Source: Maylandia zebra (taxonomy: Eukaryota > Chordata > Actinopteri > Cichliformes > Cichlidae). Taken from it: a stretch of 64,000 bases of DNA. Of the stretch, positions 279 to 59,745 are shown one piece after another (positions within the stretch are counted from its first letter, which is position 1; every line of letters starts with the position of its first letter). Under the pieces are notes generated by a model, which did no database searches, was not told where the DNA came from, and worked only from the letters and a program-made list of their open reading frames with translations. The position numbers and the translations under genes were made by a program. The stretch is taken from the NCBI RefSeq assembly GCF_041146795.1, contig NC_135185.1, positions 8,768,529 through 8,832,528 on the forward strand, in the 5' to 3' direction.

Positions 279-3200
279 CTCCTCCTCCGGCCCAATCAGA
301 GGGCTAAGAAACTCGTCAGCCTCCACCGGCTGACGATCTGGCAACTCCTCTGCTTCCTCAGTGTTCTGCATGTAGGAGAAGGTGCACTCCAGCAGCAGAT
401 CCACATCAGGTGTTGGGGGTACGACCTCAGCACCAGGGTTCGGGTGGTTCTCCAGGCCTGGGAGGAGCAGGGAGCTGAAACAGGAGGAAGAGAAAATCCG
501 GTCAGCAGGTGGTGCAGATCAGACAGAACAACACCATCTTCAGATATTCACCCAGTCTGGTGGGAAGAAGCCTCCACCTCCTCTTCTTCCTTCATGCCTC
601 TCTCTGAGACTCTCGTCTCCCAGGGGCCCTGATTTGGGTGGTGTTCTGGAGAGTTCTCGTTCTGAAAATCCACTCCAACGAGGGAGGCCCGGTCGCTCAG
701 AGGAGTTCCACTTCCTCCGTCACTGACACTCCCGTCCTGAACTACAAACATGGAGTCTGAACAGCTGCTCTCAGAGAGGCGGGTCGCACCACCGCTGTCT
801 GAGGAGAGAGAGACAGGTCAGAATCACACACTCACCTGTCTGTCTGATCTCCTGTTTAAACTGTTGCTCTGTGTACTCGTCACAGAGTCACATTGGTCAT
901 AAAGTGGTAAAACGCTTTACAGAGTGGGAGGAGTCACACTTGCCTTGTCGTCGCCTCTTTTTCTTCTTCACTCTGATGGGCTTTACCACCAGCTCCTGTT
1001 GCATCTGCTCCTGACCCAGGGGGGTGCTGTAACGTCTGGATGTCAGCTCGCAAGAACCACTCGCTGGAGCGTTTCCATGGAGACTGTCCCATGAAGTGAC
1101 GGAACTGCTGCGGCTTCGAGAGCTACTTGCGAACAAACCGGACAGCTGGCCAAGCTCAGTCACCTGGAATCACAACCAAACACACCTGGTTACCCTAACA
1201 GAAAGGACAGGTATGGTTACTGCAGGCTGTCCCAGGAATCCAGGTAAACCACAGCAGCAGCCATACCCCCAGTTGCTGCTCCTCCTCTGCCTCCTCCACT
1301 TCCTCCACTCCTCCCTCCTCTTCTTCCTCTGCTTTCTCCTGTCCACCCTCCCCTCCTTCGCCATCCTCTCTTCCCCCTCCCTCTGTAATGATGGCCATGG
1401 TTCTGATTGGCTGAGCAATTTCCACTGATCCGACTGATCGGAGGATGGTGGGTGTGGTCAAGGGTGAGGACAGACAGACAGAGAGGTCCAACACTGACAG
1501 ACAGAATGAGGGTATGTGAAAAAGAGAATTGGTGAGATTATACTGGCAATGGGCTTTTATTAGTAGTAGTGGCAGTATTATGCTCCTGTGATATTATACT
1601 GGTAGTGCTGGAGTTGCTCACAGTTGGAGGCAAGACCCTCGGGGCTATTGGACAGGCGGATGATGTCACGATCTCCTTTCAGGACGAAGATCTCGTTGTC
1701 ACAGCAGGAGACAGACACGATGTCTCCGCTGCTCTCCAAAGCTCCAATGATCACCTTAAGAACACAGATCAGTTAGAAATTTAAACAACATTCACAGAAC
1801 GCTCAGAAGATTCAGATTTATGCAAAATTAATCCAAAACACAAAGCAGTTCAGAAATATGGGAAATGTTAAGGAGCTTGCAAAGAAAAGCGTCTGGACTT
1901 CTTTAAGTTGCTTGAAGGCATTTCACCTCTCATCTGAGAAGCTTCTTCTAGAATCAAATGGTGGAGAGTCCCAGATTTAAACCTAGTGGGAGTTTCCCCC
2001 CACAGAGGGACAAAAGGACCCCCTGATGATCCTCTACCTCTGTTCAAAGATGGTCGCTCACAGTGGACATAGATGGCTTCTTTCACTCCTCTTTCAAACC
2101 ATCTGTCCTCTCTGTCCAAAATGTGAACATTGGCATCCTCGAAAGAGTGACCTTTGACCTTTAGATGCAGATGGACTGCTGAGTCTTGTCCTGTGGAGGT
2201 GGCTCTTCTATGTTGTGCCATGCGCTTGTGAAGTGGCTGTTTGGTCTCTCCAATGTAGAGGTCTGAGCATTCCTCGCTGCACTGTACAGCATACACCACA
2301 TTGTTAAGTTTGTGTTTTAGCGTTTTGTCTTCGTGATGAACCAGTTTGTCTCCGAGTGTGTTGCTGGGAAGATGCTCCTGAGTTTTCCCGATACACCGGC
2401 TGCAATATTTTTATGTTTGTCTTTCTTATCCTCCCTCGCTGGTGTCTGGTCTTCTTTTCTGTGCCTCTTTGCTGACTTTAAGAACGCCCATTTAGGATAG
2501 CCGCACGTTTTGAGTGCTTCTTTTACATGTGTGTGTTCCTTCTTTTTAACATGTTCTGCCCGGTGGTGTAGGGTCCTGATTACTCCAAGTTTGTGTTCCA
2601 GAGGGTGATGGGAGTCAAAGAGGAGGTACTGGTCCGTGTGTGTGGGCTTCCGGTAAACTTCGATGTTGAGTTTGCCGTTCTCTTCAATGTGCACAGCGCA
2701 GTCCAGGAAAGGCAAACAGTTGTCCTTTGTGTCTTCCCTGGTGAACTTGATGTTTTTATCCACAGCGTTAATGTGCGCAGTGAAGGATTCCACTTCTTGT
2801 GTCTTGATTTTGACCCAGGTGTCGTCCACATATCTGTACCAGTGGCTGGGTACTCTTCCTTTGAAAGAGCCAAGAGCCTTTCTTTCCACTTCCTCCATGT
2901 AAAGGTTGGCTACAATAGGTGACACGGGGGAGCCCATGGCACAGCCATGTTTTTGTCTGTAGAAGCCTTCGTTGTACTTGAAATATGTAGTGGTGAGGCA
3001 GAGGTCTAACAGTGTGCAGATCTGATCGGGTGTGAAGTTGGTCCTGTCCTCCAAGGAGCTGTCTTCTTGTAGTTGTTTTCTGACAGTCTCCACAGCCTCC
3101 GTGGTGGGTATGCAAGTGAAGAGAGAGACTACATCAAAGGACACCATGGTTTCATCTGGATCCAGGGTAAGTTTCTGGACCTTGTCGGTGAAGTCGGTGG

Positions 3201-4900
3201 AGTTCTTGATGTGGTGTGGGGTGTTCCCCACGAGAGGAGCAAGGATGGTAGCAAGGTGTTTAGCAATGTTGTAAGTGGCTGAGTTTATGCTGCTCATGGG
3301 TCTGAGTGGGACAGCTTCCTTGTGGATTTTAGGAAGTCCATAGATGCAGGGTATGGCATCCCCTGGGTAAAGGCGGTGATATGTAAGGCGGTCAGTGATT
3401 TTGTCCTTTTCAAAGTCCTGAAGGCAAGCTATAACTTTCTTTTTGTAGCTGCTTGTGGGGTCTCGCTTTAAGGCTTCGTAGGTGTTGTTGTCACTGAGGA
3501 GAGTAGTGATCTTTGTGTGGTAATCCGTAGGGTTTAGGACCACGGTGCACCTTCCCTTATCAGCTGGTAATATAGTGATGTTGTGGTCTTTGCTCAGGGA
3601 ACTGACGGCCTTCTTTTCTTGTATTGTGAGGTTGTATTGTTGGACGGAGGGACTTTGACACTGGACTTTCATCCTGATTTGCTCTGCTTCTGTCTGTGAT
3701 AATTTGTTAATCCGTATGGCAGTTTCTGTGGCTGTGATGAGGTCCACTATGGGCAGCTGTTGTGGAGAAATGGCAAAATTGAGTCCTTTGGCTAATACTT
3801 TCTTTTCAGGTTCAGTGAGATTACAGTCTGAAAAGTTCTTCACCCATTTTTCCTGACTGTCCTCAGGTGTGTGTTCTTCTCTGTGTTGTGTAGGTTCTGA
3901 CTGAGGAGTGTATGTTTTAGAAAGCAAGGTGTGGAATTTCCTGCGTTGTCTCTCTTTTCTTTTAGAGAGTTGGGCCTGCTGAGCCTTGTCCACAAACTTG
4001 TAAACCTTTTCTAAAATACGAGAGGGTTTTCAGTTCCTGCAGAGTCTGGCTGATCTTGTTCTGGAGGTCATCTATAGTGAAATGGACCTGTCTTATCCTT
4101 TCACTTAGAAGTTGATTTTATTCTCCCCCTAAAAATCAACTATGTCCCCTGACCATGGATCCAAGGCGTAAACCCTTAGGAACAACTTTGTCTGCATCTT
4201 AGGTTGAAACGGAGATGGTTCCTATAATCCGCTAGTTTCCATGATTCCTTTTCATACTGCCGCACCAGTTGAAGGGTGTTCCTCACAAAATGTACGGCAA
4301 TATGTGTTTGAAGGTTCTCAGTCATCCAGGTCATCGCAGTCTAAGCAGCTTGGAAAGAAAAGCGTCTGGACTCCTTTAAGTGGCTTGAAGACTTTTCACC
4401 TCTCATCCGAGAAGCTTCTTCAGTTACGTCACAGAGTATGGAGAGAGTTTACGAAAGAGAAGCAAATAAGAGTCGTCAGGTGCTCAAAATAAACCTTAGA
4501 CTCAAACGTTAGAACAGGCTTTTCCCTGCAGCACGCCATGTAACAAATACTTACAAAGGAAATGGCGGCTGTTGTTAGGTTTTGTATTGTTGATTGTCAT
4601 TTATGCTTAGAAATATTTACCCACATATGCTTAGAAGTGTATAATCATTTGTAGATTGAAAGAATGTCTCATCCTAGGAGGTCTGTAACGGCTCTGAGTA
4701 GCATGACGGGGGAGTGCGTTCACTCCCTCTACAGAGTGTTCTGGCATAGATCACACACCTCCTAGGAGAGGTCGTATCTTCTCTTGCTGATATATGGCAT
4801 AGCAAACACACGTATATCTGTTTAAGTATAAGAGCCTTTTGTTCAGATGGACCCGCTCCTGGCACCAGCGTTTGGGGAGTCTTCACAGGGTCACACCTTG

Positions 4901-10300: not shown

Positions 10301-20089
<9,789 letters not shown>

Positions 20090-36662: not shown

Positions 36663-41206
<4,544 letters not shown>

Positions 41207-45720: not shown

Positions 45721-47836
45721 AGGATCCGATTGGCTGTATGTGTCAGTGCGGTGTTCCCAGGCCAGCTGAGAGATTTCATCTCTCTAGCATATCCTGGATC
45801 TGCCCTGGGGCCTCATTTCGAAACACCTCCCAGGAGGCACCCAGGTGCAACCAACCTTCTCAACTGGCCACTTTCGATCCAGAGGAATAGCGGCCCAACC
45901 TATCTCCACAGAAGAGGCCAGCCACCCTTCAGAGAAAGCTGATTTCTGCTGCTTGTATCCGTAAACTCATTCTTTTGGGCACTACCTAGACCAGGGGTCG
46001 GCGAGCCGCATGCGGCTCTTTAGTCTTTATTTTGCAGCTCCGGGTGGTTTGGGAAAATAAATTAGAAGTATTTTGCTGAAGTGTATTTTATTTGTGTTTA
46101 GTTCTTTTTTTAACTTGTAGTTCTAAATTGGAAGATTATTGTTATATTGAAATATAAAAATAAAATTATATCTTTATTTTTTCATTGCTCAAAATAAGCG
46201 TCACACTCGTGGAAGCCGGTGTACCCGCCGAAACGCCGTGCATTTATCGAGACTTTCAACCCCAGGTAGGCCAGTTATGGATCTTCGGATCCACATTATG
46301 TCGGCAGCTGTTCTCCACCGTGAACTATGTTAAAAACAAACACCACTTACGCCTCACACGACAGTCCTACGTAAAGATGAAAGCCCCGATCTGCAGACGC
46401 TGTGCGCAGAGGTTCAGGGGCAGAAGTCCCATTGTAAACATACGACGGCAGACCCGACGATGTTTGCATGAACACATTTTTCAGCATCTCTTTATTGACC
46501 ACTTTTCACACGCGGTTGCTGTACGCATACAGCCGGCTGTAGCTCTTCAACAGCAGAGAGAGCACAGACTTTAAGGCGGCGAGGCGTGATTGCGGGTGCC
46601 GCTCAGGTGCGTCCGCTTCCCATGCAGCGGCACTGCAGACCACGCCCCGCCACACACATTAACCAGGTAATATACATATTTAGGCAGAATTTTGTAAATA
46701 TCTATTTTTCATTTTTAGCAGCATAGTGCTTTTTTCCAATTACTTTTTAAAAGTCAGGTCAAGGCTCCAAAAGCCCAAAGGCGATACAAGGGTGGAGGCT
46801 CACAACAGTTTTTGTTTGCTGGATCATTTTAGTTCAGCGTCTTTCCTTTTGTTATATTTCTTTAAGAGTTCAAAATGTGTTAATTACATAAATGTACTTT
46901 TCTCTGTAGCACTTCATGGAGTTCATAAACAACACACCTTAGTTGCTCTGTGGATTCTTTTAAAAAGCACACTGTTAGACATTTTATTGTATTTTTACAG
47001 TAACTTACTGGCAACACTATTGCCAGTAAGTTACTGTAATTACTGATCTACAGTATCTTTACTGTTGTGATGTTTTACAGTTCAACCACTTTACTGTAAA
47101 CATATATTACAGTATAACAGCTTTACTGTAAACGTGGTTTACAGTTAGAAAGACTTACCGTGATTAAGTTTTATAGTATCACTGTACTGCAAATGTGGTT
47201 TATGGTATAACACTGTAATTGTGTACAGTATAATTTGTTTAGACTGTAATTGTGTTTTACAGCATATAAAATAATATTAACATTCATATTCAATATAAGA
47301 ACATTTACAAAAAACAATATAATTCAATAAAGTAGTCTCAGAATAGTGAATTAAACCAACATTTATTGTTGATATTTTTTTTAACAAGAAAAACATTTTT
47401 CAACTGAATAAAAACAATGCCAATAACCAAAATAAATAGAAGCGTACATGAAAACTACACAGTCCTTCACCTTTCTGTCTGATTTTTTTAAGGAAAACAG
47501 TTTTTCATTCCACTAAAAACAGGACAAACCCACCAGCATGAACATTAAATAAACTATTACAATTGTAAAACAAAACTCATTTACAAAATGTAATAATTAT
47601 CAGTGGGTCCCAGGAAATAGAATGTGACATGGGATTTAGATTTCCGTTACCAGGATGGTTGGGTTCAGCGTAGTCTACATCACCACCTGTCAAAGACACA
47701 TAATCAATATTCATGTTTGCTCAGGTTATTCACTTGTTCACATCTGTCTGAGATCATTCATACTGTTGTATGGATGTGTGTACAGTATGTATATAATTAT
47801 CAGCTATGTAAAAGATATTATCATCTCTGTTCTTAC

Positions 47837-49489
47837 CTAGTTGGAAGTCCTCCATTCAAACTCAGAGAGCCGCTGGAGGAAGGTGGTGATCCGAGGGCTG
47901 ATGCTTGTAACTTTCCTCTTTACGACACGACCTGTCTTGCGGCTTGTACCAAGTTTTGCAGGGCATTTTGTTCCCATGTCTGGATTGATCCTCACAAAGA
48001 ACCTTTTAACAGAAAAAAGGCTGCTTTAATTTCAAAATTAAAACATACGTTACAGCAATCACCTATATGTTTCTGCAACTGTAGTCAAGCTATCACATAT
48101 ATTTCATTCTTAAATGGTGTAAAGTATTTACCTCTGTATCATCTCCAGTGTGATGGACGCTGACTCCTGATACTCAAGGTTGAAAACGTAGTATGACGCA
48201 AAGAAGACAGCAAGGGTGCTGGCAAAGTCATGCATCTGCTCAGGCTCATAAAATACCTTGCCCTCCAAACTGATCATCCAGCGGCTTGCAGACATGAAAT
48301 TATTCCCTAAAAACAGACAAGAGTCCAATAAGACAATGTGCTCACCCTTACAAATAAGGTTTCCACAAGAATGCTGGATAGCAGGCCTCACACTGTACAA
48401 AAATAGAATGCACACGGTTTGCTGCTATTTCTCTTATTATTTATTATCTAATGAAAATTATGATCAATTACAGGAAAAAACTGCCTTATGTCTTTGCATT
48501 TTGGCCTGTGCTGAAGTGTTAGGCTGTTTTTTCCTGTTGGTCATTGTGTATAATAAATAATAAGAGAAACAGCAGCAAACTGTGTGTATTCTATTTTTAT
48601 ACAATATAAAACAGACAAACCCCTGTTAAGTAAGTTGTTGTGGGTACAAATACCACAATAATTACATAGATTTTTTACAAAAATATTACAACAGGATTGA
48701 AACTATTTACTTACCAAGCGCTATTACCCTTGGTGTGATGGGTAAGGTCATCTCTCTCTCAACAGACATCTTGGTGGAAAAAGCCTTTAAAACACAAAAT
48801 GAACTGATTTGAATGATGATACCCAAAATCATTGAAATATTTTCCTTTGTTTATGTTGACAGTATTGAGAGTGCATGTGTAAAATTTTAAATATAATTAC
48901 GTCAGCCAAGATGAAGATTGAGTCCTCTTTTTCTTGGAAGTACTTCATCAGAAGGAGGATGGCTGCTGTGGCGATCTGGTTGTGGTTCAGCTTTGCACTG
49001 TCGCACTCACGTAGCAGATGTTCAATCTCCTTGTTCCACTGAAGTCTCTGGCTTTGAAAGAAGTTCAAAATTCTCCTTCCTTTCGTAAGAAGGGCTTCAC
49101 TGAGACGTGTCTCTACCTCAATATCTGTGAGTGTGTGGAAGTGAGTGCAGAGGCCTCTTTTAGTAAAAAGAAATGGCCAATGCTCTTGAACCTCACATAA
49201 GGTGGGGGCAGGCCAAGAATTAAGCATGTGCCTCTGGTAAATATAAGTCAAAGACATATAAGTATTTACATCTGTTGTTTCAATTGCTTGAGGACCTGCT
49301 GATCTGAAGACAGTTGACACAGTCTGTCTTTTTGTCTCCAAAGTTTCACTTGTTTCTCCTTCTGGTAGGGTTGTGGGTTGCCAGTTGATGCAACCATAGC
49401 TATCAAGTTCAGATCTCCCCCTTTTGATGGCAACATCACCCTCATTGTTTTCCCTGGTAGACCTTTTCCTTGGCTGCCGGATTCTGCTG
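47837..49489 (-). CDS. second CACTA-encoded protein, SAMD3-like C-terminal region (4 exons, 5' incomplete)
   Basis: Exons 49489-48901, 48784-48715, 48306-48132 and 48002-47837 have GT-AG borders and compatible phases, giving about 333 residues to a stop. Motifs: ENNEGDVAIKRGRSELDSYG, WPFLFTKRGLCTHFHTLT, LNHNQIATAAILLLMKYF, EREMTLPITPRVIALG, NNFMSASRWMISLEGKVFYE, FASYYVFNLEYQESASITLE, RVVKRKVTSISPRITTFLQR. The central part resembles fish proteins usually labelled SAM domain-containing protein 3-like, though no SAM domain is visible here. The start is missing: the first exon follows a splice acceptor at the presumed deletion point. Function unknown; it may help transposition or be a captured host sequence. 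Confidence 0.65.
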
Positions 49490-51118
49490 CTGTACAGTAC
49501 AGACATGAAAATATTTCAGAGAATTGAAAGGTGAGTCAAACTTTACCCCCTGTACCATGTCTTGGTCAGTGGTGGATAGCTGTTGTACACTCTCCTTGTG
49601 ACCAGTGATGGTTCTTTTTGGACCAAGCTTTAGTGGTGTCTTTTCAAAGTCTGTCCTTTCAATCAAGCAGTATCTACAAAAATGCGTACTACAACTGAAG
49701 TTTTCAGTGAAACCACCTAAGCAGTGTGAACCAAGATTATCTCCACAAATGGAAATCAAGGCCGCTTTGAGGGTATTTCCATCATCTGTCTCAATCCCTG
49801 TATCTTCTAGATCTTTAAGGTCTGTGATAATACTTGAGAAAACTTTCTCCTGACCAAATGTCTTGAAGTCCCTTTCTCTGCACAGCATCACCAACTGCAT
49901 GGGATCAACTGAAGAGCGATTGTGTGGCTGGACCTCACCAAGACTCATGTAAACCCCCAAAACTTTATGTTTTTTCTTCCCTGACCCAAGAGGATTCACA
50001 ACCTCAAATCCATCCTGGTAAAGGATGATGGACAATGAAGAAGGATTGTCTTTTAACAGAGCATTTTCTTTCACATTTCTTCCATCTGCCACATCCTCTA
50101 CAACCATGTTGGAAGAGGTATGATTTTTGGATTGGTGATATTGCTCTTTAACACTTGACTGTCTAAGGAGTGATTTTAATGTCTCTTTGATGGAAATGTA
50201 CTGGCAAAAGCATTCCTTTCCAGCAGCATCACTTCCCAGATAAATCTGGGTGGGTTCAACATAGTCAAAATACTGCTTGTAAAATGTTCTCCTTGTTTTG
50301 TCAGATCTGAGTATTCCTTTGTTGTATATTGTGAAGACATCCTCTTTAGAGAGATTTTGAATAATCATTTCTATCTCAGTTTGTGGTATGTCTAGCTCAG
50401 AAAGCTTGCCCTTCAACTTGTCAAAAACATCTGCCATAGAAGTGCTATGGACATGCAGAAATCCATCAAGAATACATTGTATTGTGCTCGCTGGCAACAG
50501 CATCTTGGCTTGCATTTTCAGGTAGAAAAGAGCCAAATTATGTAAAAATGTCTCTTGTTGATTATCACACTCCTCTAGATGATCACATGGAGTTGGAGTC
50601 AGAGTCTCCTCAGAAGGCTGAGTACAGTCTATATTTTCGGGGAGAGTTGACACCTGAGTTGTTATCACCGGCTTATGTTTCCTGGATAAATGTGTGGCAA
50701 AAGATGAGCGCACTCTGAAATGTTTGTGGCAGTCATCATAAGGACAGACAACTTTCTTGCCATCTTTAATATGAAATCTCAAATGAGTGCATAATGCTGA
50801 AAAATTCTCTGCCACATAGAAACATGCCTCAACTCCACAAGCAAGATTTCCTTTAAAATGGGTGTGTTTAGTCTGAGCCCTGCGATAGCGGTGGTTCCTG
50901 TGCATATGGGATCTGAATGCAGAAAATGTTCGATAGGAAGAAGGACATTGCTCTATTCCACATGTGAATCGATAATTAGCTGTGTGCTGATGTTTCTTCG
51001 TATGATAACAAAATTGTCTTAATTCTGAACAAAAAACACCACAAAATTTACACCTGTACATGGCTGCATGTGTCTGAATTTGAATTTCCAAAAAAATGTT
51101 GTCTACCTTTATTCTCAC
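49442..51118 (-). pseudogene. CACTA-type transposase with N-terminal C2H2 fingers, truncated
   Basis: 558 open residues. The first 150 contain about four C2H2-like fingers: CKFCGVFCSELRQFCYHTKKH, CGIEQCPSSYRTFSAFRSHMH, CGVEACFYVAENF..H and CPYDDCHKHFRVRSSFATH. From about residue 285 there is a transposase-like region: QIYLGSDAAGKECFCQY, IILYQDGFEVVNPLGSGKKK, HKVLGVYMSLGEV, LISICGDNLGSHCLGGF and a Cys/His cluster FCRYCLIERTDFE. This resembles the Tnp2-like group found in many fish and invertebrate genes. The conserved continuation after GVKFDSPFNSLKYFHVC is missing; the frame instead runs out-of-frame into the next gene and stops, so a deletion near 49500 removed the C-terminal catalytic part. 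Confidence 0.75.
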
Positions 51119-53593
51119 TAAATATGTCTTTTTACCTGCTGTTTTGTCTTGTCTGTCAAAGAACTGAGGCTACATCACACTGTCAGCGCGGCCAGCAAGG
51201 GCAGGAGGACAGCAATGCACCACACTGGGCGGGAAAAGACAGAGAGACAACTGTTAATTTAATGTTGCATTTATTTAACCCTTGAAAAATATATTTACAT
51301 AAGTAAAAAAAAGAAAAAAAACACACAACCCATCTTTTCCAGAATAATTCAACTAATTCCCTTTTGACCAACCTAACACAGACGTTACATGGTTTTCATA
51401 TGAAAAAGACCCTGGAAGACGTTGTATTAAAGGAAAAAAAACATGCTCCCCTTCCCACTTAAAAAAATAATAAATATTAAACTTAGGTTGGAGTTCCTCG
51501 CGCCACCAACCTAACGTTATATTAACTTTTTAATGTTGTGCACTGCAGCTCACACAAAATTAAATAAAGCAGGCTAACCTACATGAGCAAGCTCAAAACT
51601 GGATAAGATTGTTTTAGCAGTCTCTAAATTTCCAAAAAAAAAAAGTTGTCTTACATTATTCTCATTAAATGTGTATTTTTACCTGCTGCTTTAGCTGAAG
51701 CTAAATGTCCCACTGTTAGCATGGCCAGCTTCTCAAAAGTCATAGAACAGAAGCGCAGGAGGACAATGCACCACACTCGGCGGGAAAAAGACAAAGACTG
51801 TCGTTGCGCCTGTGTTCTTCGCCCCTCCCCGTGGAAAATATATATCTAAATATTTATTTGAATAAGAAAAGAAAAAAACACACACAACCTATTTTTTCCA
51901 GAATAATTCAGCTAATGTGCTATTTCGACCAAGCTAACACCGAATTTAAGCCCCCCCTCCCCCCCCCACACACAAAAAATATATATGCTCTTAAAAATTA
52001 ATAAACGAGTATGTTAGGTAGGAGAGTCCTTTGCATTACCTTATGACGTCCCGTTTGCAGTTTCCACACAGAGGTCCAACAATAACGAGGTGCAAAATCT
52101 TTTGTCCTCTCGAGCATATCGTAACGAAGAGTTAGCAAAGTTGGCCTGTCTTTCCTCTCCTGTCAATCACTGGATCACAGGTCATGTCAGTCAGGATATG
52201 GAGTGGTGGTTGGTAGAGATAGGTTGGTGGGCGGGGCCAGCATGCATTCAGTGTGTGTTTCACTAAGTTGGGTTGACTAGTTCCCAGAAGAGTTCTGTAC
52301 ATGTTGCACGTTCAGTAAATGAGCAATTCAGTTACTGCTCGACTGAGAAGCCTCCACCAAATTATTACAATATTCTCCACTGACTGAAGTTCGCCTTTGG
52401 CAACGCAGTGGCAAGCACACATTTGAAGCAGCTGTGCATGTGCATACAACTGCATGCAGCAGATTAGATGATCAGAATTCTTGAACCTTACACACAGGCA
52501 AGTCCCCTAAAAAGTCAAAACCATAATACTTTCACTGGTATCATACTGACAAATGGCATAGGTTGGAGGAAAATCTGGAAATGGTTGGCAGTGAAAGAGT
52601 TAAAATGTAATGCACTATTGCAACCAACCACTGAAAGAGTAAAAATACACAAACAGTATGATGAACCATTCAAATCACATAATACAGTAGCACTACTGCT
52701 AATGTGTTAACGGTAGGTATAACTACTACCGCAATTTTAAAAAATACAGTAAGTAAATGTAAAAAACCTTAATATACCCATAATGCAAAGCAAATTACAG
52801 TAATTAACTGTAGAAATGTTTTCAGGTAAGTTACTGGGCATTTTGTGGTATTTTACTGTGAAAAATACAGCAAAGGTTAACAGTGCAGTTCAAAACTTTT
52901 CTGTTCAAACAAGCCTTTTGTTGATCTACGCATTTTATAATCTTTACATTATTTACATTTGATCTTTTACATTGTGTATAATGTCTATTGTTTATTTTAA
53001 TATTTGTGTACAGCGCTCTGTGACTGCCTGTCTGTGAAAAGCGCTTAATAAATAAACTTTACTTACTTTAGTTGTTCAGACAAAGCATAAAGGTAAAAAA
53101 AACAACGTATACAGTGTTATCTTCATTTTAGATTTAAAAAAGTATTTGCGGCTCCCAGTGTTTTCTTTTGCGTGGAAACCGGGTCCAAATGGCTCTTTGG
53201 GTGTTAAAGGTTGCAGACCCCTGACCTAGACTATAGGTGAGGGTAGGGACGTAGAATGACAGGTAAATCAAGAGTCACTCTTTATCTCTTGCTCTTCCTT
53301 CCCCTCACTCGTGAACAAGACCCTGAGGTACTTAAACTCCTCCACTTTAGGCAGCAACTTGTCCATGACCTGGACTGAGTGCTCCACCCTTTTCCAATGG
53401 AGGATGAAGTCCTCGGATTTGAGGGAGCAGCTCCTACTCAGTACTCAGTTTTTATGACTGTCACGATTTACAAAGGCAGATCATGTGGAGATGAAAATGA
53501 AGACCCAAATGCAGACACCTTTATTATGGTGGAACTGAAGAATAAACAAAAGCAAAGAGCGACTACACAGAGCTAACAAACCCTAAACTGGGA

Positions 53594-57021: not shown

Positions 57022-57366
57022 GAAGCAGCACGGTGGCACGGTGGTTAGCACTGTTGCCGCACAGCAAGAAGGTCCTGAGTTCAATTCCACCATCAGGCCG
57101 GGGTCTTTCTGTGTGGAGTTTGCATGTTCTCCCCGTGTTTGCGTGGGTTCCCTCCGGGTACTCCGGCTTCCTCCCACCGTCCAAAGACATGCAGCTTGTG
57201 GGGATAGGTTGATTGGATAATCCAAATTGTCACTAGGTGTGAATGTGAGTGTGAATGGTTGTCTGTCCCTGTGTGTTGGCCCTGCGACAGACTGGCGACC
57301 TGTCCAGGGTGTACCCTGCCTCTCGCCCTATGACAGCTGGGATGGGCTCCAGCGCCCCCCGCGACT
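57022..57366 (+). mobile_element. DANA/V-SINE-like tRNA-derived SINE
   Basis: Reads GCACGGTGGCACGGTGGTTA, AAGAAGGTCCTGAGTTCAAT, GTGTGGAGTTTGCATGTTCT, CCAAAGACATGCAG and GCGACAGACTGGCGACCTGT, the dispersed fish SINE core with a tRNA-like head. The last bases (CAGCGCCCCCCGCGACTGAC) run straight into the LINE that follows. A degenerate piece of the same type lies at 23040-23160. Confidence 0.8.
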
Positions 57367-59745
57367 GACTATAAGAGAACAGCACCACCAAGGCTGGAGA
57401 CGGAGCAATACTGGAAGAGCATATGGGAGAAGGATGCAACCCATAACGGCAATGCTCAGTGGCTAGTGGATCTGAGGGCAGACCACAGCGACCTCCCTGA
57501 ACAGGGTCCAGTAACCATCACAGTGGCAGATATCCAAGAAAGGGTCTCCAGTATGAAGAGTTGGACAGCACCAGGGCCCGACATGGTTCACGCCTACTGG
57601 CTGAAGAAGCTGACTGCACTCCACGAGCGTCTGGCAGCACAAATGAACCAGCTGCTAGTTAACGAGAGACACCCGGAATGGCTAACTGAAGGCCGGACGG
57701 TCCTGATCCCCAAGGACCCCAAGAAGGGACCGGTCCCCTCCAACTACCGACCAATAACCTGCCTCAGTACTACATGGAAGCTCCTGTCAGGCATCATATC
57801 GGCTAAGATGAACAGGCACATGGGTCAATACATGAGCGGGACACAGAAAGGAATTGGCAAGAATACCAGAGGTGCAAAACACCAGCTACTGGTAGACAGA
57901 ACAATCAGCCGAGACTGCAAGACCAGACTGACCAACCTGTGCACTGCCTGGATTGATTACAAGAAGGCCTATGACTCAATGCCCCACAGCTGGATACTGG
58001 AATGCCTAGAATTGTACAAGATCAATGGGACCCTAAGAGCCTTCATCAGGAACTCAATGGGGATGTGGCGTACAACACTAGAGGCCAACTCCAAGCCCAT
58101 AGCACAAGTTACCATCAAGTGCGGGATCTACCAAGGAGATGCTCTGTCCCCACTGCTGTTCTGCATAGGCCTGAACCCCCTCAGTGAGATCATTAACAAG
58201 ACTGGCTACGGATACCGACTACGGAACGGAGCAGTTGTCAGCCACCTCCTGTACATGGATGACATCAAGATGTATGCCAAGAGTGAACGAGACATCGATT
58301 CACTGATCCACACTACCAGGCTATACAGCAATGACATTGGAATGTCGTTTGGACTGGAGAAGTGTAGTCGGATGGTAACAAAGAGAGGGAAGGTAGTCAG
58401 AACTGAGGGGATTGAACTACCAGAAGGCAACATTGCAGACATAGAGGACAGTTACAAGTACTTGGGGATCCCGCAGGCAAATGGGAACCATGAAGAGGCC
58501 GCTAGAAAGGCTGCAACCACCAAGTACCTGCAGAGGGTCAGGCAAGTCCTGAGGAGTCAGCTGAATGGTAAGAACAAGATCCGGGCCATCAACACATACG
58601 CCCTGCCCGTGATCAGGTACCCTGCTGGGGTAATAAGCTGGCCAAAGGAGGAGATAGAAGCCACTGACATAAAGACAAGAAAGCTCCTTACCATGCATGG
58701 AGGGTTTCACCCCAAGTCCAGCACCCTGAGGCTGTACGCTAAGCGGAAGGAAGGGGGCCGGGGACTGGTGAGTGTCAGCACCACAGTCCAGGATGAGACA
58801 AGGAACATCCAAGAATACATTGGGAAGATGGCCCCAACTGACCGAGTGCTCAGTGAATACCTCAGGCAGCAGAAACCCAAGAAAGAGGATGGAGACGAGG
58901 AACCATCATGGAAGGACAGGCCCCTGCACGGTATGTACCACCGGCAGATAGAGGAGGTGGCTGATATCCAGAAATCCTACCAGTGGCTGGACAAAGCTGG
59001 ACTGAAAGACAGCACAGAGGCACTAATCATGGCAGCACAAGAACAAGCTCTGAGCACAAGATCCATAGAGGCTGGGGTCTATCACACCAGGCAAGACCCC
59101 AGGTGCAGGCTGTGTAAAGATGCCCCAGAGACAATCCAGCACATAACAGCAGGGTGCAAGATGCTAGCAGGCAAGGCATACATGGAACGCCATAACCAAG
59201 TGGCCGGCATAGTGTACAGGAACATCTGTGCTGAGTACAACCTGGAAGTCCCGAGGTCAAAATGGGAGATGCCCCCAAGGGTGGTGGAGAATGACCGAGC
59301 TAAGATCCTGTGGGACTTCCAGATACAGACGGACAAAATGGTGGTGGCTAACAAACCGGACATAGTGGTGGTAGACAAACAGAAGAAGACTGCCGTAGTG
59401 ATCGATGTAGCGGTTCCGAATGACAGCAATATCAGGAAGAAGGAACACGAGAAGCTGGAGAAATACCAAGGGCTCAGAGAAGAGCTCGAGAGGATGTGGA
59501 GGGTGAAGGTAACGGTGGTCCCCGTGGTAATCGGAGCACTAGGTGCGGTGACTCCCAAGCTAGGCGAGTGGCTCCAGCAGATCCCGGGAATAACATCGGA
59601 GATCTCTGTCCAGAAGAGCGCAGTCCTGGGAACAGCTAAGATACTGCGCAGGACCCTCAAGCTCCCAGGCCTCTGGTAGAGGACCCGAGCTTGAAGGATA
59701 AACCGCCCGCAGGGGCGTGCTGGGTGTGTTATATATATATATCTC
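57367..59745 (+). mobile_element. R4/Dong-clade LINE, 5' truncated
   Basis: Contains one long frame with RT followed by a C-terminal restriction-like endonuclease, the arrangement of the R2/R4 group (fish Rex6/Dong). The 3' untranslated region is only about 65 bases and ends in a short (TA)n run at 59731-59742, matching the preference of Dong elements for TA-rich sites. The left boundary with the SINE is abrupt. Confidence 0.88.
57466..59679 (+). CDS. R4/Dong reverse transcriptase-endonuclease, 737+ residues open
   Basis: The frame is open from about 57370, upstream of the GTG at 57466 (reading WKSIWEKDATHNGNAQWLV), so the true N-terminus is lost. RT motifs: MKSWTAPGPDMVHAYWLKKL, LIPKDPKKGPVPSNYRPITC, IDYKKAYDSMPHSWI, CGIYQGDALSPLLFCIGLNP, and the catalytic box LLYMDDIKMYAKS, all intact. 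A CCHC knuckle follows (CRLCKDAPETIQHITAGCKM). The endonuclease has the PD-(D/E)xK pattern KPDIVVVDKQKKTAVVIDVA with a downstream KKEHEKLEKY. The domain is complete to LKLPGLW and has no internal stop, which suggests a recent insertion. Missing are the N-terminal DNA-binding residues. Confidence 0.92.
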   Translation: MDLRADHSDLPEQGPVTITVADIQERVSSMKSWTAPGPDMVHAYWLKKLTALHERLAAQMNQLLVNERHPEWLTEGRTVLIPKDPKKGPVPSNYRPITCLSTTWKLLSGIISAKMNRHMGQYMSGTQKGIGKNTRGAKHQLLVDRTISRDCKTRLTNLCTAWIDYKKAYDSMPHSWILECLELYKINGTLRAFIRNSMGMWRTTLEANSKPIAQVTIKCGIYQGDALSPLLFCIGLNPLSEIINKTGYGYRLRNGAVVSHLLYMDDIKMYAKSERDIDSLIHTTRLYSNDIGMSFGLEKCSRMVTKRGKVVRTEGIELPEGNIADIEDSYKYLGIPQANGNHEEAARKAATTKYLQRVRQVLRSQLNGKNKIRAINTYALPVIRYPAGVISWPKEEIEATDIKTRKLLTMHGGFHPKSSTLRLYAKRKEGGRGLVSVSTTVQDETRNIQEYIGKMAPTDRVLSEYLRQQKPKKEDGDEEPSWKDRPLHGMYHRQIEEVADIQKSYQWLDKAGLKDSTEALIMAAQEQALSTRSIEAGVYHTRQDPRCRLCKDAPETIQHITAGCKMLAGKAYMERHNQVAGIVYRNICAEYNLEVPRSKWEMPPRVVENDRAKILWDFQIQTDKMVVANKPDIVVVDKQKKTAVVIDVAVPNDSNIRKKEHEKLEKYQGLREELERMWRVKVTVVPVVIGALGAVTPKLGEWLQQIPGITSEISVQKSAVLGTAKILRRTLKLPGLW

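Follow-up and report, generated by a model that had tools for sequence, protein, structure and literature searches.

The window analyzed here, a stretch of 64,000 nucleotides from Maylandia zebra (contig NC_135185.1, positions 8,768,529 to 8,832,528, forward strand), contains at positions 46970-52885 a transposable element with a CACTG 5′ terminus, a CAGTG 3′ terminus and a CA dinucleotide on either flank. Inside it lie the incomplete remains of two genes on the same strand, one coding for a zinc-finger transposase and the other composed of several exons. Its features, in window coordinates, are the following.

46968..46969, no strand: left copy of the 2-bp target duplication (CA); same size in 9 of the 11 further two-ended copies
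46970..47270, no strand: left end, CACTGTTAGACA..., with subterminal repeats ACTGTAA/TTACAGT, 9 copies within the first 300 bp
47837..48002, minus strand: second gene, exon D, with the stop codon
48132..48306, minus strand: second gene, exon C
48715..48784, minus strand: second gene, exon B
48901..49489, minus strand: second gene, exon A, the 3′ part of the core exon; the same exon extends further upstream in copy L009
49490..49503, minus strand: deletion joint (approximate), transposase residue ~521 (L029 numbering) fused to the second-gene core exon, with an estimated ~2 kb missing by comparison with L009, L025 and L029
49503..51061, minus strand: N-terminal part of the transposase, with C2H2 fingers, YQD and GDN (the first two catalytic aspartates) and CRYC
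51062..51943, minus strand: part of the 5′ leader, an internal tandem repeat whose two diverged units each contain a GCAG/GTAAAA donor-like site
52846..52885, no strand: right end, an imperfect inverted repeat of the left end, terminal AACAGTG
52886..52887, no strand: right copy of the 2-bp target duplication (CA)

Termini and copies of the element

The family of this element exhibits hallmarks of the CMC group, namely CACT(A/G) inverted termini, a short target duplication and clustered subterminal repeats. In the CMCT clade the target duplication measures 2-5 bp, according to the accessible text of PMC12730594, and comparison of the flanking letters of the window element reveals no 3-bp repeat. 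The nine occurrences of ACTGTAA/TTACAGT in the left 300 bp compare with a mean of 0.48 in shuffled sequence (maximum 3 in 500 shuffles), and the single exact copy in the right 200 bp with a shuffle mean of 0.17.

A search of the same genome (962 Mb, 63 contigs) with the left end as query returned 33 matches, which represent 18 separate copies including that of the window; the 17 others were fetched. Both ends could be placed in 11 of these, and no end pair was found in the other six. The CACTG...CAGTG termini recur in 9 of the 11 two-ended copies, and a 2-bp duplication is likewise present in 9 of the 11, which argues against chance, while none has a duplication of 3 bp. The two copies devoid of a duplication (L018 and L024) have altered ends. 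The CACTG ends and 2-base duplication named in a preliminary description of this DNA are thus borne out. The readable empty site that it also reported consists of two legible flanks with CA, but of nothing beyond them.

A common internal deletion, with its joint at window positions 48798 / 51163, is shared by nine of the 17 fetched copies (L010, L011, L012, L014, L015, L017, L019, L020 and L024). This set retains exons B-D together with the leader and has the character of an amplified non-autonomous subfamily, seven of its nine members measuring 3.5-3.8 kb between ends.

The transposase and the second gene in the window

The transposase-like open reading frame (51169-49442, minus strand, 575 codons) codes for C2H2 fingers and for the beginning of a DDE domain. 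Of the catalytic set it keeps D, D and C(2)C only, and is devoid of H(3)H and of the catalytic E. Placed on the 880-residue transposase of L029, it covers residues 1-521, in agreement with the earlier observation of a zinc-finger frame that is missing its C-terminal half. The donor-like sites of the leader fall at ~51136/51135 and ~51683/51682 (counted by hand) and may serve as splice donors. The tandem duplication of the leader pairs window positions 51083-51382 with 51595-51943 at ~65-70% identity, with one donor-like site per copy.

The four exons of the second gene have GT-AG borders and join into a single minus-strand frame of 333 codons that ends with TAG. To this extent the multi-exon gene proposed in the preliminary description can still be spliced on paper, but its start and its SAM-like exon are gone. 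Exon A has no acceptor of its own and begins at the deletion joint. The 333 codons are no more than the 3′ portion of the gene. L009 additionally has an ATG-bearing SAM-like exon and ~165 codons of the exon that follows it, all of which the window copy has lost.

Among 46 matches to exon C, 15 lie downstream of a core exon (9 of these 15 in diverged relatives), no other order occurs, and for 31 no core was found. Nineteen relatives of exon C, for none of which a core exon was found, are ~50% identical and are mostly frames of 107 codons. Relatives without a core include C5:674111, C8:75587, C10:139638, C14:110778, C16:241365 and C21:264604, and 7 of the 19 lie within 300 kb of the first base of a contig, perhaps as a subtelomeric repeat derived from the second gene.

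Longer copies and the internal deletion

A longer copy is L009 (C20:1248000-1256600), an element of 7171 bp with both ends and the duplication, which holds parts of both genes and is identical to the window at 99.7% over the left ~2.5 kb and at 99.0% over the right ~3 kb. Its additional 1.6 kb contains the transposase C-terminus with the stop codon TAA and, after 12 nt, the ATG of the SAM-like exon, which an intron separates from the 5′ part of the core exon. L009 itself is without the middle of the transposase, some of which is retained in L025, where other parts are lost. On the L029 transposase, L025 covers residues 179-368 and 373-597, and the C-terminal piece of L009 covers residues 655-877. 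Among the matches listed in the transposase and second-gene searches of the same genome, no copy of the window family has both genes whole.

From this comparison, one deletion of ~2 kb appears to have taken the 3′ half of the transposase together with the 5′ part of the second gene in the window copy. Since both genes were cut together, the second gene of the window is a start-less fragment and not a preserved gene, and the earlier impression that it is better preserved than the transposase does not hold.

Transposase families and their junction with the second gene

The transposase search of the same genome listed 80 matches, many of which have open frames of ~880-1000 codons and an identity of 28-41%. 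Thirty loci were fetched, of which L028 and L037 are one element and L026 is that of the window. The start of a second gene lies inside the fetched stretch at 14 of the 30 (L027, L029, L031, L032, L033, L034, L035, L039, L040, L042, L049, L052, L054 and L055); at the remaining 16 the stretch is too short, the copy is truncated, or no second-gene start was seen. The first exon is of the SAM-like type in families closer to the window and of a type that we take, from its sequence pattern, to be PB1-like in L054 and L055. One copy of L029, on C2, combines an open transposase frame with open second-gene exons.

The distance from the transposase stop to the second ATG is 12 nt in L009, 145 in L029, 62 in L042, 139 in L052, 71 in L054 and 204 in L055, and it is negative in L031 (-13) and L035 (-10), where the second gene starts inside the transposase frame but in a different phase. 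An acceptor-like site is found 2-41 nt upstream of the second ATG in all eight families read, where the remaining ATGs in these loci would predict 2.6, under a rule (at least 8 pyrimidines of 12) that was fixed after the sites had been seen; at 9 of 12, seven of the eight families retain a site, against 1.35 expected. A donor-like site, GCACG/GTAAGT, lies upstream of the L029 transposase.

Family boundaries were set at the 5′ end by comparing copies with one another. Identity begins at, or 1-2 bases before, CACTGTAAAAAA in L029/L033/L034 and in L047/L048, CACTGTTAAAAA in L031/L032 and CACTCTAAAAAA in L050/L051. Four further families thereby exhibit CACTG or CACTC 5′ ends, a statement that covers 5′ ends only; the comparison of L035 with L041 revealed no CACTG or CACTC 5′ end.

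Genome-wide linkage of the two genes

Merging of matches across the same genome yielded 188 transposase loci and 156 second-gene loci. Of the latter, 103 lie within 6 kb downstream of a transposase locus on the same strand, none lies upstream or on the opposite strand, and for 53 no transposase was detected in this range; random placing, with the size of some contigs assumed, predicts 0.12 downstream. A count that left out one of the three transposase searches showed the same pattern. By type, the linked fraction is 21/24 for SAM-like, 21/41 for core and 79/110 for PB1-like matches. Seen from the transposase, a second gene was found at 103 of 188 loci and none at 85, a proportion that is a lower bound because the second genes of L031, L032 and L035, visible by eye, escaped the searches. 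These are counts of loci and not of events, since many of the 103 are near-identical copies, and the linked families reach down to ~30% transposase identity.

The pair of transposase and second gene is kept across many diverged families of the same genome, and the window copy is an ordinary product of internal deletion from a conserved animal CACTA architecture with two genes. The occurrence of both frames within one element, which the preliminary description had left to be checked, is seen in L009, where parts of both lie between two ends, and in the linkage of 103 of the 156 loci. Its suggestion that the second gene encodes a partner protein of the transposon family gains support from the fixed order and strand in many diverged families, along with the CACTG/CACTC 5′ ends of four of them.

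Core exons ~50% identical to that of the window, with frames open for 334-344 codons and no transposase detected within 6 kb, occur at C7:10104550, C10:5770662 and C14:25575019; they are either deletion derivatives or host genes.

Protein domains, transposase tree and selection

The transposases of L029, L031, L035 and L052 contain YQD or FQD, GDN, CRYC, HHxxxH and RFExKH, the full D, D, C(2)C, H(3)H, E set that characterizes CMC transposases, and those of L050, L053 and L055 have ADN and CRFC in place of GDN and CRYC. Pfam Transposase_21 matched one of three full transposases, at an E-value of 0.034, below the cut-off. In a tree of the transposases (11 rows), a single branch with a support of 100/100 separates the SAM-like from the PB1-like families, the labels of L047, L050 and L053 being taken from second-gene matches just beyond the fetched stretch.

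For the first domain of the second protein, SAM_TNK was recovered from Pfam below threshold in four of five family exons (best E 6.8e-4), with unrelated entries such as HTH_51 and Sigma70_r1_1 at similar E-values, and the second-gene protein of the window family itself gave no SAM match in the Pfam search. The PB1-like exon matched nothing in Pfam or PDB, and a PDB search with the SAM-like alignment gave no meaningful match. A sole, weak tie between the two versions is found at C20:10081718, where a PB1-like start is joined to a core related to that of the window (E 6e-4). The name SAMD3-like, applied to the second protein in the preliminary description, is a tentative one; a Pfam search of the second-gene core gave no match, and no DNA-binding domain was recognized in the domain searches of the protein. 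A single-sequence fold of the core exon had a mean pLDDT of 43.6 and was discarded.

The second gene evolves as a protein-coding gene, its protein being conserved relative to nucleotide change. Between L009 and L046 the core (157 codons) has a pS of 0.742 and a pN of 0.282, and for the SAM-like exon omega is 0.18 (F5/F6), 0.18 (F2/F5) and 0.29 (F3/F4), with the other computable pairs at 0.25-0.6, several of them at 0.4-0.6, and the rest saturated; in all these figures dS is near saturation. The dN/dS comparison among copies suggested earlier covers parts of the genes: the L009/L046 core speaks for constraint, but the window and L009 differ too little for such an estimate, with one synonymous and one non-synonymous change in exon A, a single difference in exon D, and two and two in the transposase. 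Transposase dN/dS for L029 against L034, L040 and L049 was set aside because the frames are shifted in those copies.

A probable two-gene animal CACTA transposon

The window element probably derives, by internal deletion, from an animal CACTA (EnSpm/CMC) transposon that carries two genes, and is itself non-autonomous. In this transposon the transposase frame would sit in intron 1 of the gene for a putatively oligomerizing partner. Families with an open transposase frame run, on one strand, from a leader through a single-frame C2H2/DDE transposase of ~880-930 residues to a second gene predicted to be spliced, which starts with a SAM-like or PB1-like first domain and continues with the core exon and, in the family of the window, three further exons. 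The single 5′ leader may be alternatively spliced, joining either the transposase or the acceptor that immediately precedes the second ATG. The transposase would lie within intron 1 of the second gene because the leader, on the latter route, would splice past it. SAM and PB1 domains self-associate, and the SAM-like and PB1-like readings of the first domain are the reason for regarding the second protein as an oligomerizing partner, which may bring together ends with ACTGTAA subterminal repeats for excision. The two-gene animal CACTA element is best read as ancient. It is conceivable, as a decidedly tentative extension, that the protein is a vertebrate equivalent of TnpA that joins the ends through a self-polymerizing N-terminal domain (a SAM domain or, in the other clade, a PB1-like one), that a single swap of this domain took place close to the root of the transposase tree, and that host genes of the SAMD3 type descend from it.

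Other accounts of the pair differ in how the second gene came to its position and in how it is expressed. Plant CACTA elements capture genes, and the preliminary description had allowed for a host gene fragment carried by the transposon. Such cargo, a SAMD3-like fragment taken up by one family and having no role, would fit the second-gene loci at which no transposase was detected, some of them with open frames. The recurrence of the two genes in fixed order and strand in families that share only ~30-50% transposase identity, and the agreement of second-gene type with the transposase tree (one change, support 100/100, 11 rows), nevertheless render capture highly improbable. An element-borne second gene could instead be a regulator or anti-silencing factor outside the transposition complex, driven by its own promoter in the 3′ region of the transposase. 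TnpA of En/Spm also regulates its own element, according to the accessible text of PMC2613891, but in the eight families measured the second ATG is found close to the transposase stop, at distances of -13 to 204 nt, and each is preceded by an acceptor-like site, so that an independent promoter is rather unlikely.

The short distance between the genes bears also on whether the second-gene exons are spliced onto the transposase as a C-terminal extension, giving one fusion protein. Both genes occupy one strand with little room for a promoter, and inspection of L009 by eye shows a CAG/GT donor-like site, close to where the transposase ends, that would be in frame with the acceptor upstream of the SAM-like ATG if the two were spliced together. 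Yet the transposase stop precedes the acceptor in L009, L029, L042, L052, L054 and L055, and the ATG of the second gene falls within the end of the transposase, in another frame, in L031 and L035. The case that the preliminary description had set against its own proposal, in which both frames are exons of one transposase gene, does not apply in its simple form, as the second gene has a separate ATG, located beyond the transposase stop or, in another frame, within the transposase end; a spliced fusion is a quite improbable rival. The reading as a transposase with a separately translated partner is thus preferred. If it is correct, the animal branch of CACTA elements gains a conserved second protein. 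The need for two proteins in an animal CACTA element could then be tested directly, because in some families of the genome both the transposase frame and the second-gene exons are open. Fish annotations presumably hold many gene models named SAMD3-like, many of which may then be transposon genes.

Relation to known systems

The closest parallel is maize En/Spm, with its TnpD transposase and DNA-binding partner TnpA. The parts of PMC2613891 that are accessible describe CACT-type ends, subterminal repeats, deletion derivatives and two element-encoded proteins, with a transposase frame upstream of a multi-exon second gene, all as in the fish element. Within the maize tnpA transcription unit, the transposase frame occupies the region of intron 1; splicing yields two mRNAs, and both proteins are required (PMC2613891). 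The systems differ in that the fish transposase has C2H2 fingers and the first domain of the fish second protein looks SAM-like or PB1-like; moreover, alternative splicing in the fish element is predicted from donor-like and acceptor-like signals. The target duplication is 2 bp in the fish element, yet 3 bp in the soybean CACTA element of PMC2613891, as far as its accessible text goes. A plan shared with maize although the second proteins appear unrelated would point either to convergence or to great age.

Among animals, SmTRC1 of Schistosoma mansoni and related TRC elements share a CACTA-type transposase and 2-bp duplications (7 of 14 SmTRC1 copies), and SmTRC1 yields several spliced products, one clone having a second frame after the transposase (PMC1636069, accessible text). 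Its ends differ in having a CCC core. The other SmTRC1 proteins are reported, in the same portion of PMC1636069, as not detectably conserved, whereas different families in a single fish genome share a conserved second gene. The zebrafish EnSpm elements of Repbase (EnSpm-N1_DR, EnSpm-N6_DR and others) likewise represent the EnSpm superfamily in fish and include short non-autonomous members; the descriptions accessible in PMC3485254, through which they were compared, concern non-autonomous members only, in contrast to the fish families with open transposases. The literature search, which lay outside Repbase and most subscription journals, found no description of CACTA elements whose second gene carries a SAM or PB1 domain.

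Other features of the window

Several further features lie outside the element. A SNORD83 match at 37793-37869 (minus strand) scores above the Rfam gathering threshold. A 570-codon open reading frame with an overlapping second frame occupies 1868-4029 (minus strand) and is taken to be a Penelope-like reverse transcriptase, the overlapping frame being presumably GIY-YIG-like. An open frame of 357 codons at 12458-13531 (minus strand) is assumed to be Tc1/mariner-like, and another of 781 codons at 57334-59679 (plus strand) is presumably a LINE-like reverse transcriptase.
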